NCBI RefSeq assembly: GCF_005080965.1
Contig: NZ_CP034867.1
Location: 310,001 to 374,000 of the forward strand
Length of the DNA: 64,000 nt
Direction: 5' to 3'
DNA from: Buchnera aphidicola (Macrosiphum gaurae)
GTDB lineage: Bacteria > Pseudomonadota > Gammaproteobacteria > Enterobacterales > Enterobacteriaceae
Shown: positions 33,588-56,387 of the stretch, one piece after another
How the letters are laid out: every line of letters begins with the position of its first letter
Numbering within the stretch: position 1 is the stretch's first letter
The notes under the pieces: model-generated
Seen by the model: only the letters and a program-made list of their open reading frames with translations
Told to the model about the DNA's origin: nothing
Database searches by the model: none
Made by a program: the position numbers and the translations under genes

Positions 33588-35264
33588 TTATTCAGTATTT
33601 TTAGCTGCTTTAAATGCTTCTGTCATAACGTTAGAAAAAGCATCATCATTCTTTTTACTGTTAGAAGAAGTCATTGAATCTTGTTTTTCATTTTCGTTTA
33701 CATTATGAATTGTAAGATAAATTATTCTATTTTTTCGATCAAAATTAGATAATTTAACTAAAATGTCATCTTCGATTTTTAATTTATTAATTATTTGTTC
33801 AGAATATAAACGAGGAATATCAGATAATTTTATAATTCCGTCTAAGTGTGCTGGTAATTTTACAAAAATATTTTTTTTATCTAAAGATTTAATTTGACCA
33901 GTAACAATTGTGCCTTTTTTATAATTTGTAATATATACATTAAAAGGATCTTCTTCTAACTGTTTAATTCCTAAAGATATACGTTCTCTTTCTGCATCTA
34001 CTTGAAGAACCACTGCTGAGATTTCATCATTTTTTTTATATTTTTTAACTGCTTCTTCACCAGGTATTGTCCAAGAAATATCAGATAAATGTACTAATCC
34101 GTCAATACCTCCACTTAAACCAATAAAAATACCAAAATCTGTAATAGATTTGATTTTTCCATTAACATGAACTCCTTTCTTATGAGTTTCAGAAAACTCT
34201 TTCCATGGATTAATCTTACATTGTTTTAAACCAAGAGAAATACGACGACGTTCTTCATCTATATCTAAAACCATAACTTCAACGATATCATTAACAACTA
34301 CTACTTTCGAAGGATGAATATTTTTATTAGTCCAGTCCATTTCAGATACATGTACAAGACCTTCTACTCCTTCTTCGATTTCTACAAAACAACCATAATC
34401 TGTTAAATTTGTTACGCGTCCGCTTAATTTGGTTTCTTCTGGATAACGTTTAGAAATAGCTATCCAAGGATCTTCACCTAGTTGTTTTAATCCTAATGAA
34501 ACACGTGTTCGTTCTCTATCAAATTTCAAAATTTTAATATTAATTTCGTCACCTACATTTACTATTTCGCTAGGATGCTTGACTCTTTTCCAAGCCATAT
34601 CAGTAATATGTAAAAGGCCATCTACACCACCTAAATCTACAAAAGCTCCATAATCCGTTAAATTTTTTACAATCCCCTTAACATGCATGCCTTCTTGTAA
34701 ATTTTCTAATAATTGATCTCGCTCAGCACTATTTTCCGATTCAATGACAGCACGACGTGAAACAACAACATTATTACGCTTTTGATCTAATTTTATTACT
34801 TTAAACTCTAATTCTTTTCCTTCAAGATGTACTGTTTCTCGCACTGGACGAACATCTACTAAAGAACCAGGTAGAAATGCACGGATATCATTTAGTTCAA
34901 CAGTAAAACCGCCTTTAACTTTACCATTGATTATTCCAATAACTGTTTCTGATTTTTCATGAGCTTGTTCTAGTATTAACCATGCTTCATGACGCTTTGC
35001 TTTTTCACGAGATAAAAGTGTTTCACCGAAACCATCTTCAATAGCGTCTAAAGCAACATCAATTTGATCTCCTACGTTTACATCTAAAAAACCTTGAGAA
35101 TTTTTAAATTGTTCCGCAGGAATAGCAGATTCAGATTTAAGACCAGCATCAACTAAAACTATATCTTTTTCTATAGCAACAATGGTACCGCGAATAATTG
35201 AACCTGGACGAGTTTTAATTTCTTTCAGCGATTCTTCAAATAATTGAGCAAAAGATTCATTCAT
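33588..35264 (-). CDS. rpsA: 30S ribosomal protein S1
   Basis: Ribosomal protein S1 helps mRNA bind the 30S subunit, which matters here because many genes lack a good Shine-Dalgarno sequence. Six S1 RNA-binding repeats can be followed (for example [41 protein letters not shown]). The start [16 protein letters not shown] is nearly identical to E. coli and the length of 558 residues compares with 557; the C-terminal tail is Asn/Ser/Lys-rich. It has its own promoter and a small leader hairpin, which recalls the translational autoregulation known for E. coli rpsA. Confidence 0.97.
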
Positions 35265-35381: not shown

Positions 35382-36049
35382 TTAATTTTTAAATATATTT
35401 TTATTTTTTTCAATAATACATTCCATTATTTTTTTTGTGACTTCTGATAAACTCATATAGGTCGAATCTAATATTATAGCATTTTTTGCTATGCATAAAG
35501 GAGAAATTAATCGATTTTGATCACGTTCATCACGATTTTTCATTTGCGCAAATAATTTTTTAAAATTAATATCATGACCATTTTTTTTTAATTCTAACAT
35601 TCTTCTTTTTACACGTGTTTCTAAATTAGCATCTAAAAAAAATTTAAGCACAGCATCTGGAAATACTACTGTGCCCATATCTCGTCCTTCTGCTACTAAA
35701 CCAGGCAAACATCTCATTAATCTTTGTTTTTTTAATAAAATTTTTCTAATACTAGGATAAACTGATAATTGAGAAGAAACCTCACTTATTATCTCAAGAT
35801 TTTTTGATTTATAAAAAAAATCGATAGTTTTTTTTTAATTAATGAAAAATCTAAATTTTTCAAAAATCTAACGATATTTTTTTCAACAATAGTAATATTT
35901 TTATTTAATACTAGAAATGCAACTAATCGGTATATTTTTCCTGATTCTAATAAAGACCAATTTAAGTTGTATGCTATTTTTTTAGAAATTGTGCTTTTAC
36001 CAACACCACTAGGACCATCAATGGTAATAACAGGAATTTTATTTATCAT
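35382..36049 (-). CDS. cmk: Cytidylate kinase, interrupted by a frameshift in an A9 tract (likely rescued by slippage)
   Basis: Cmk phosphorylates CMP and dCMP. The first part, from the ATG at 36049, has the P-loop TIDGPSGVGKST and LLESGKIYRLVAF, then runs into a stop at 35789. The second part is in another frame and is well conserved: IISEVSSQLSVYPSIRK, then KKQRLMRCLPGLVAEGRD and MGTVVFPDAVLKFFLDA to the stop at 35382. The switch lies at a run of nine A on the coding strand (35828-35836 as T on the forward strand). With ten A the frame is continuous and would encode 222 residues, against 227 in E. coli, with no other lesion. In E. coli cmk also precedes rpsA. I judge it a functional gene with a slippage-prone tract, but a simple pseudogene or a sequencing error cannot be excluded. 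Confidence 0.85.
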
Positions 36050-36104: not shown

Positions 36105-37388
36105 TCAGATATTACTGATAGACAAAAAATCTTCAAAATAAGATGGATAAGTTTTTGAAATACAATTAGGATTAAGTATATTTACACCTATTCCAGATAA
36201 AGATATAAGAGAAAAACACATGGCTATACGATGATCGTTATAAGTTTCAATGTTTGAATATTTAAACATAACAGGAGGAGTAATAGATAAAAAATCTTTC
36301 CCTTCCTCAACTTTAGCACCAATTTTTCTTAATTCGATAGTCATTGCAGATAAGCGATCAGTTTCTTTAACTCTCCAGTTGTATATATTTCTAATAGTCG
36401 TAGTGCCCTTAGAAAAAAGAGCCACCATGGCAATCGTCATTGCTGCATCAGGAATATGATTCATATCTAAATCTATTGCATTTAATTTGTTATGAGTACA
36501 AGTAATGGAATAATCTTCCCAACAAATTATTGCTCCCATTTTTTTAAGAATATTTGCAAATTCTATATCACCTTGAATACTTTTTTTACCAACACCAGTA
36601 ACTTTAATTGAACCACCCTTGATGGCTGCAGCAGCTAAAAAATAAGAAGCTGAAGAAGCATCTCCTTCAACTATATAGTTTCCAGGTGCTTTATATTCTT
36701 GTTGACCTTTTATATAAAATACAGTATAAGAATCATGTTTAATATTTACTCCAAAACATTTAATTAAATTAAGTGTAATATCAATATAAGGTTTAGAAAC
36801 TAAATTTCCTTTGATAATAATGGTAGTATTGTTTAGAGCAAGCGGAGCACTAATTAATAATGATGTTAAAAATTGACTAGAAATATCACCGTTTAAAAAA
36901 ATAGTCCCTCCAATAAAACCGCCTCTTGTTAGTATTGGCGGATATCCTTTATTTTCTTTATATTCTATAATAGCACCTCCTTGTTTTAAAGCATCAACAA
37001 GATCTTCGATAGGTCTTTCATGCATTCTATTATCTCCACTTAATAAAACTTGATTTTTATGTAAAGATAATACGGAAAGAAGAGGTCGTATAGCAGTACC
37101 TGCGTTCCCTAAATATAGGGAAATAGGTTGAGATAAATTAAAAGCTTGACCTATACCTTGAATACAACATATTTTTTTATCATTTGATAAAGAGTACTTA
37201 ATACCTAGTTTTTTTAAAGCATTTAACATGTGTTGTGTATCATGACTATCTAATAAATTTTTTAAGTATGTTGTACCCTTAGCTATTGAAGAAAGTAATA
37301 AAACTCTGTTTGAAATACTTTTTGAACCCGGCAAACAAATAGTTCCATTAACATAAGATATTGGTTTTAAATTAAAAGAATCTTGCAT
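36105..37388 (-). CDS. aroA: 5-enolpyruvylshikimate-3-phosphate synthase
   Basis: Shikimate-pathway enzyme that joins phosphoenolpyruvate to shikimate 3-phosphate, needed for the aromatic amino acids supplied to the host. Substrate-binding motifs are [16 protein letters not shown] at the N-terminus and [12 protein letters not shown] around residues 90-100; the catalytic region has [17 protein letters not shown] and PDAAMTIA, and the end has [12 protein letters not shown]. The length of 427 residues equals E. coli AroA. It lies between serC and cmk, as in E. coli. Confidence 0.97.
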
Positions 37389-55374: not shown

Positions 55375-56387
55375 TTGTCACTATCTAAAAATAGTCAACT
55401 TATACTACGTCATAGTAAAATATTTCAAACAAAAAAAGTTTTTTTTTCAGGAAATATACAAGATGAATTTCCCCTACATTTAGATACTGTTAGCACAAAA
55501 ATAAACATTCAAAGATATAATGATTATATTAATTTAAAAAAAAAAATATTAAAAACATCAAGGTTTATAATAATATACTAGTTTCTAAAGAAATGATTAA
55601 AAACTGTAACACAATAATTTATTATTGGCCTAAAGATAAATCTGAGGCAAAATTTCAATTGATGAATATTATTTCATATTTTTCTATCAAAACTGAAATT
55701 TTTATTGTAGGAAATAATTCTAGCGGAGTAAGAAGTGCTCCAGAAATTTTAAAAAAATGGATTACTTTATCTAAAGTAGATAATGCAAAACATTCTATTT
55801 TAATCTCAGGATTTATTCAAAATAAAACAGTTTTTATATTAGAAAATTTTTTTAAAACACATGTATGGAAAAACTTAATTATAAAATCATTACCAGGAGT
55901 GTTTGGTCATAAAAAAATAGATTCCGGTAGCAAACTTCTTGCTTCTACTTTTTCAAATCAGATAACTGGAAAAGTTTTAGATATTGGTTGTGGGACTGGT
56001 TTTTTATCAGCATCTCTACTATATTCTGCACCTAATACAATCTTAACATTAGTTGACAATAATTTATTTGCATTGAAATGTAGTCGTTCTACACTTAATT
56101 CTAATAAATTAAAAGGAGAAATCATATGTAGTGATTTATATTCGAATGTTTTTAAAAAATTTGATTTAATTATTTCTAATCCGCCTTTTCATTATGACTT
56201 AAAAATGAATGTGAATATAATAGAAAAAATAATACGTTGTTCAAAAAAATATTTAAAATTAAAAGGAGAATTAAGATTTGTAACAAATAGTTTTTTGAAC
56301 TATGATAGTTTATTGCAAAAAAATTTTAAAAAATATTGTGTTCTAAAAAAGACAAATAGATATAAAGTTTATCAAGCTTTTTTATAA
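55375..56387 (+). CDS. rsmC: RsmC, 16S rRNA m2G1207 methyltransferase, interrupted by a frameshift in an A11 tract
   Basis: RsmC methylates N2 of G1207 in 16S rRNA. The first part starts at a TTG (55375) with AAGGA upstream and reads MSLSKNSQLILRHSKIF, aligning with E. coli RsmC, then stops at 55581 in its own frame. The other frame continues without gap as KNIKVYNNILVSKEMIKN into CNTIIYYWPKDKSEAKFQLMN, and contains the SAM site VLDIGCGTGFLS and the catalytic ISNPPFH. The switch is at a run of eleven A (55546-55556); with twelve A a single frame of 337 residues results (E. coli 343). No other defect is visible. As for cmk, transcript slippage may restore the product; a translation restart at 55593 would give only the C-terminal part. 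Confidence 0.85.

Follow-up and report, generated by a model that had tools for sequence, protein, structure and literature searches.

An apparently old poly(A) frameshift in cmk of Buchnera, probably corrected by RNA polymerase slippage

In the 654-kb genome of Buchnera aphidicola (Macrosiphum gaurae), the gene for CMP (cytidine monophosphate) kinase, cmk, is flanked by aroA and rpsA and encoded on the minus strand, inside the 64-kb stretch of DNA analysed here (G000:C1:310001-374000; hereafter the window). It occupies two open reading frames (ORFs), which meet at a run of nine A on the coding strand (T9 on the plus strand; Table 1). From the ATG, frame 0 runs for 71 codons, which we take to hold the P-loop and the start of the NMP-binding domain, reads KKK at the tract and continues for 12 codons to a stop, giving an ORF of 86 amino acids (aa); the length of this frame-0 tail varies among species. 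After the tract, the −1 frame is open for 147 codons. From ATG to final stop the gene measures 668 nucleotides (nt) vs. the 669 needed, so that one added base yields 222 codons and a stop, just as the original prediction for this locus had reckoned for a tract of ten A. Judging from the genomes compared below, we think it likely that cmk carries an old one-base deletion in its poly(A) tract, that the gene is alive, and that its frame is corrected, most likely through slippage of RNA polymerase.

Both pieces are recognisable as parts of Cmk. TIGR00017 (cytidylate kinase) matches the first with E=1.3e-20 and the second with E=1.6e-32, at 74 and 113 bits, scores of halves alone that each lie under the whole-protein cut-off of 135.55; PF02224 matches them at 2e-17 and 9.6e-34, both over the family cut-off of 26 bits. 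These matches bear out the original prediction that a gene split at nine A still covers Cmk with its two halves, each in an open frame. The downstream piece matches E. coli CMP kinase (PDB 1kdo/1cke) at E=3e-39 and 8e-39 and aligns without gaps to residues 96-219, and the first piece aligns to residues 5-68; thus, the tract encodes part of the stretch between residues 69 and 95. Among 15 intact Buchnera cmk genes, the distance from the TIDGP to the EGRDMG motif ranges from 315 to 354 nt. Because the stretch around the tract varies in length, one lysine more or less at this point should be harmless. No second copy of cmk was found in the 654-kb genome, where the one further PF02224 match was weak (E=5e-5, positions 3-30). 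Among the records compared, the leu plasmid of this genome comes closest to that of the Buchnera of Macrosiphum albifrons (91.5%), though nearer ones may be hidden.

Table 1. Features of the cmk locus and of the second tract-split gene, in window coordinates.
Feature	Positions	Strand	Evidence or remark
cmk, first 71 codons, frame 0	35837..36049 (ATG at 36049)	-	TIGR00017, PF02224; dN/dS 0.126 in six split species
A9 tract, read as three AAA codons in frame 0; site of the frameshift and, presumably, of slippage	35828..35836	-	inside variable-length stretch
Frame-0 tail (12 codons plus stop), closing the truncated product of 86 aa	35789..35827 (stop 35789-35791)	-	reading frames
cmk, last 147 codons, -1 frame	35385..35825 (stop 35382-35384)	-	dN/dS 0.156 in six split species
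aroA, upstream neighbour of cmk	36105..37388	-	served for tree and synteny
rpsA, downstream neighbour of cmk	33588..35264	-	served for tree and synteny
rsmC (16S rRNA methyltransferase), split at A11	55375-56387 (tract 55536-55546)	+	NF007023, E=3.2e-94

The original prediction had suggested comparing this tract with that of other Buchnera. We searched PF02224 in 36 Buchnera genomes, of which the window genome is G000, and took the aroA-rpsA interval from all 36. The gene is intact in 15, split at the same poly(A) in 13 (G000, G006, G009, G011, G013, G014, G015, G021, G022, G027, G030, G034 and G035), split elsewhere in one, eroded in three (G001, which is the S. graminum symbiont, G008 and G010) and unrecognisable in four (G005, G017, G019 and G020), where no PF02224 match exceeded the family cut-off. 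In all 13 genomes with the shared split the tract sits 188-189 nt after TIDGP and consists of 9, 10 or 11 A, and 12 of these genes are one base short. Since the split rows share ancestry, we did not count this bias as a test. The sequence ATT-A9-CT is identical in six of the seven species of one clade. In a family-wide control of 246 sampled genomes (three of Buchnera), 220 match PF02224 at 1e-8, and two pieces were listed for G000 only.

Two of the genes depart from this pattern. G022 (L131) is the only split at the main tract that is shifted the other way; it has a spacing of 328 nt and needs one A less or two more. In G024 (L133), the sister of the three lineages with eroded cmk, the gene is split at another poly(A), an A10 situated 119 nt after TIDGP, and the remaining frame is open.

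To measure selection, we applied a codon model to each half of the gene on its own, in codon sets that exclude G024 and the seven genomes with no usable cmk. For the downstream frame, the ratio of nonsynonymous to synonymous substitution rates (dN/dS, or omega) is 0.156 in the six species sharing ATT-A9-CT (omega=1 rejected, with twice the log-likelihood difference, 2dlnL, at 104), 0.136 in G000, G011 and G021 (omega=1 rejected, 2dlnL 48), 0.185 in ten split species (omega=1 rejected, 2dlnL 173) and 0.133 in three split species that we label Aphis-like. The 15 intact genes give 0.135, and forcing the six split species to this value costs only 0.35 log-likelihood units (lnL). Constraint begins directly behind the tract: over the first 36 codons, omega is 0.107 in the six species (2dlnL 43), 0.163 in the ten, and 0.293 in the three Aphis-like ones, where 2dlnL is weak (4.0).

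Neutral evolution would have left a different picture. In 2000 simulated runs along the fourfold-site tree of the six species, assuming 85% A+T at equilibrium and a kappa of 3, the downstream frame acquired 7.8 stops per lineage on average, and all six lineages remained open in 0/2000 runs, in keeping with the earlier remark that an intact second frame would not be expected after long neutral decay. The sister lineages of split G014 offer a natural control: no cmk was recognisable in G017 (U. ambrosiae) or G020, whose branch lengths (0.12 and 0.16) are similar to that of G014 (0.12). That cmk is still functional across the tract is well supported by these comparisons, and both halves have probably been kept working by selection for tens of millions of years.

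The age of the frameshift was approached through a quick tree of 13 species built from 31,074 ungapped columns (31 kb), which resolves the seven-species clade (Shimodaira-Hasegawa-like approximate likelihood ratio test support, SH-aLRT, 92-100); the aroA+rpsA tree leaves the topology within that clade unresolved. In the 31-kb tree the in-frame A. kondoi symbiont (G002) nests inside the split species (SH-aLRT 99), and a topology that keeps the six split species as one group fails the approximately unbiased test (p-AU 0.00024). We also fitted a two-state frame model to the 36-genome tree at all 69 roots, scoring G024 as in frame at the main tract and the seven genomes with no usable cmk as unknown. 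A model lacking restoration, with the root in frame, fits worse at 69/69 roots (2dlnL 5.28-16.87). At the deeper roots shown, the fitted rates in either direction are ~3-6 switches for each substitution per site, with higher values at some inner roots. With G024 counted among 14 split rows, the 'split' label changes nine times on the tree. The claim that cmk still yields functional enzyme thus finds strong support in purifying selection, in constraint behind the tract and in the nested restoration of the frame.

A passage in PMC3164680 places the divergence of A. pisum and A. kondoi at 27 ± 8 million years. The branch from the pisum-kondoi fork to the ancestor of five split species is only 0.0033 long (SH-aLRT 92), vs. 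0.08-0.12 from that ancestor to the tips, so that the deletion, if the five species share one, is nearly as old as the fork. The simplest reading is a single shared deletion in the species with the identical A9, still under selection and close to the pisum-kondoi split in age. Recurrent deletion at the tract is a possible alternative to one old event.

How would a gene of this kind be expressed? We favour the following course of events. The one-base deletion would sit in a length-tolerant part of the enzyme; RNA polymerase (RNAP) would add one A while transcribing the tract, bringing some mRNAs into frame; and part of the product would thus be read in the correct frame, giving full-length CMP kinase at a reduced level. 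RNA polymerase, and not the ribosome, is the most likely agent, and a mixed pool of transcripts, as the original prediction had proposed, is a plausible route of rescue; we infer both the amount of CMP kinase made and the cellular need for it. One added A would mend 12 of the 13 tracts, and all 13 have 9-11 A. Among transcript errors in Buchnera, 151 of 157 insertions fell in homopolymers, as did 16 of 57 deletions (PMC5574713), and PMC5009743 cites figures of 12-50% for the transcripts rescued in symbionts of aphids and ants. As to need, nucleoside diphosphate kinase (ndk, PF00334) had no match in 36/36 Buchnera genomes, compared with matches in 12/14 control genomes; with no ndk recognised, CMP kinase may be a main route to cytidine diphosphate, and may be the more valuable to these symbionts.

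Several observations weigh against this account. A study of Buchnera LSR1 saw no frame restored by transcription error (PMC5574713); it covered protein-coding regions, so that cmk may have been outside its set. A reporter study puts the shortest run sufficient for bacterial RNAP at 7 T, and higher still for A (PMC6260861), by which measure A9 is short. G022 would have to lose one A or gain two. The gene is lost or eroded in 7/36 genomes and is thus dispensable in some lineages. Codon 37 past the tract is a possible start in the six A9 species, as GTG in G035 and as ATG in the other five, and downstream folding reaches z < −2 in G035 and G014 over 60 nt and in G014 and G027 over 100 nt (mean −1.09 over 100 nt). 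The purity of the tract is not significant, since 25/48 invariant lysine columns are all AAA, which gives an expectation of 0.14 for three consecutive ones. Finally, the selection that we measured may partly predate the frameshift if several of the deletions were recent and independent.

The frame might instead be corrected on the ribosome, with tRNA-Lys slipping back one base on A_AAA_AAA and the same protein emerging from a nine-A message, which we regard as rather unlikely. This heptamer is in the right phase in 12/12 one-base-short genes, and a few species (G035, G014 and G027) have the downstream folding just mentioned. However, a Shine-Dalgarno (SD)-like motif occurs in 0/13 of the 30-nt stretches before the tract, folding over 60 nt is not consistent (mean z −0.39), and A_AAA_AAG, a strong slippery heptamer in E. 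coli, is in phase in 0/12 of the one-base-short genes. A −1 ribosomal shift would also be unable to mend G022, which is shifted the other way. In passages of PMC4363877, ribosomes are described as sliding along consecutive AAA codons, but E. coli cell-free translation showed robust sliding at A11 and little of it at A9 or A10. A stimulated shift of the dnaX type was considered separately and set aside, as its stimulators, an SD-like element and a consistent stem-loop, were not found. Nor does it seem probable that the frame toggles in the DNA itself, each frameshift being young, or a polyploid cell mixing A9 and A10 copies, with selection acting via the in-frame copies and no correction during expression. 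Buchnera is polyploid, with many chromosome copies per cell; state changes are as frequent as the nine on the tree and the fitted switch rates indicate, and A. kondoi is in frame within the split group. Yet a single old event is the simpler explanation for an identical ATT-A9-CT in six of the clade's seven species, and 13/36 broken genomes would be a high share for a transient state.

The remaining alternatives are far less credible. An ordinary pseudogene in early decay would be in line with the 7/36 genomes in which cmk is lost or eroded, and such loci are commonly scored as inactivations (they are counted separately in the relevant passage of PMC3164680). It is nonetheless very unlikely given a dN/dS near that of intact genes, the absence of any neutral run with all frames open, the exact sharing of the site by six species and the restoration of the frame; for the six-species group, decay is contradicted unless all their frameshifts are very recent. 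We give as little credence to a split enzyme formed by the two pieces, the second of which would be translated from an internal start of its own. Codon 37 could serve as that start in the six A9 species, but it is not a start in the other seven split genes, and 4/13 have no ATG, GTG or TTG in the 43-45 codons ahead of EGRDMG. Moreover, constraint in the six species is as strong over the 36 codons ahead of codon 37 as over the remainder, which fits read-through of the tract and is unexplained by an internal start. Homopolymers are prone to sequencing and assembly errors. But the same-tract split occurs in 13 genomes, among them those of A. pisum Tokyo (G030) and M. persicae G002 (our G027), the latter sequenced at 375.71-fold coverage according to a passage of PMC3890641. 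A split found in 13/36 genomes is not caused by an error in one assembly, and we consider this explanation hardly tenable.

Slippage of RNA polymerase remains our preferred account, and it has precedents. Frameshifting in dnaX is ribosomal in E. coli and transcriptional in Thermus; cmk is like dnaX in having an A run or A_AAA_AA-type site reached in frame 0, and unlike it in having no SD-like motif, no consistent structure and a short product with no evident role. Tamas and colleagues reportedly described, in 2008 (PNAS), how transcriptional slippage rescues Buchnera and Blochmannia genes frameshifted at poly(A) tracts, and Wernegreen, Kauppinen and Degnan are said to have reported, in 2010, ancient frameshifts maintained by selection in Blochmannia. 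With the cases of Tamas et al., cmk shares a single-base indel in a symbiont poly(A), a frame otherwise intact and the same kind of organism; there, however, corrected transcripts were measured (12-50%, as cited in PMC5009743), whereas the case for cmk is comparative, and the passages citing those cases do not name the gene. Like the frameshifts of Wernegreen et al., for which a passage of PMC3017870 agrees on Blochmannia as the organism, that in cmk lies in a homopolymer and is common to several species without decay; unlike them, it belongs to Buchnera, recurs at one tract in 13/36 genomes and has an in-frame species nested among the split ones. Passages in PMC5009743, PMC3017870 and PMC3164680 establish slippage-rescued poly(A) frameshifts for Buchnera and Blochmannia, as the original prediction had stated for Buchnera and other A/T-rich endosymbionts. 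Closest in host is the work of Degnan et al. (2011) on the same clade, the Buchnera of Aphidinae, in which homopolymeric frameshifts are convergent, murF is hit repeatedly and correction by slippage is considered possible (PMC3164680).

For cmk itself, titles and abstract openings yielded no report of a frameshift in Buchnera, and supplementary tables, for example Table S3 of PMC3164680, may list it. In the part of PMC3890641 consulted, cmk is named once, among genes with predicted harmful substitutions, and the word 'frameshift' does not occur; PMC10689751 was rejected as a cmk paper, 'cmk' there being an author's initials. Within the literature searched, slippage rescue and conserved symbiont frameshifts are therefore known phenomena, and cmk is a newly described case of them.

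The case matters for how symbiont genomes are read. Split at one tract in more than a third of the Buchnera genomes examined, cmk could be scored as a pseudogene and yet is selected like an intact gene, so that gene-loss counts for symbionts may be biased wherever a homopolymer frameshift is taken as a loss. CMP kinase should be retained in metabolic models of these aphid symbionts. Taken together, split, in-frame and erased relatives make the question of whether slippage rescue matters directly testable.

A scan of the window for tract-split genes returned cmk, rsmC and three pairs that were adjacent genes or spurious. In the window, rsmC is split at A11. Of the 30 genomes whose rsmC locus was examined, eight (G000 included) have a second frame that closes at this tract, and for six of the eight (G000, G002, G006, G009, G011 and G030) direct inspection showed the upstream part to be out of phase; G009 is shifted the other way, and G012 has internal stops. 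The second part of rsmC has an omega of 0.116 in five split species vs. 0.076 in nine intact ones. In A. kondoi, rsmC is split and cmk is in frame, and the two genes thus drift into and out of frame independently. More speculatively, and in our view improbably, the tract might be a selected expression setting: an out-of-frame cmk would be ancestral and kept in the symbionts of Macrosiphini, a low dose of CMP kinase would be set by tract length, and genes such as cmk and rsmC would drift between functional frame states, with slippage buffering the reading frame for tens of millions of years. In U. ambrosiae (G017, L196), an in-frame rsmC contains an uninterrupted run of 17 A; no A run in the window exceeds 11 on either strand.
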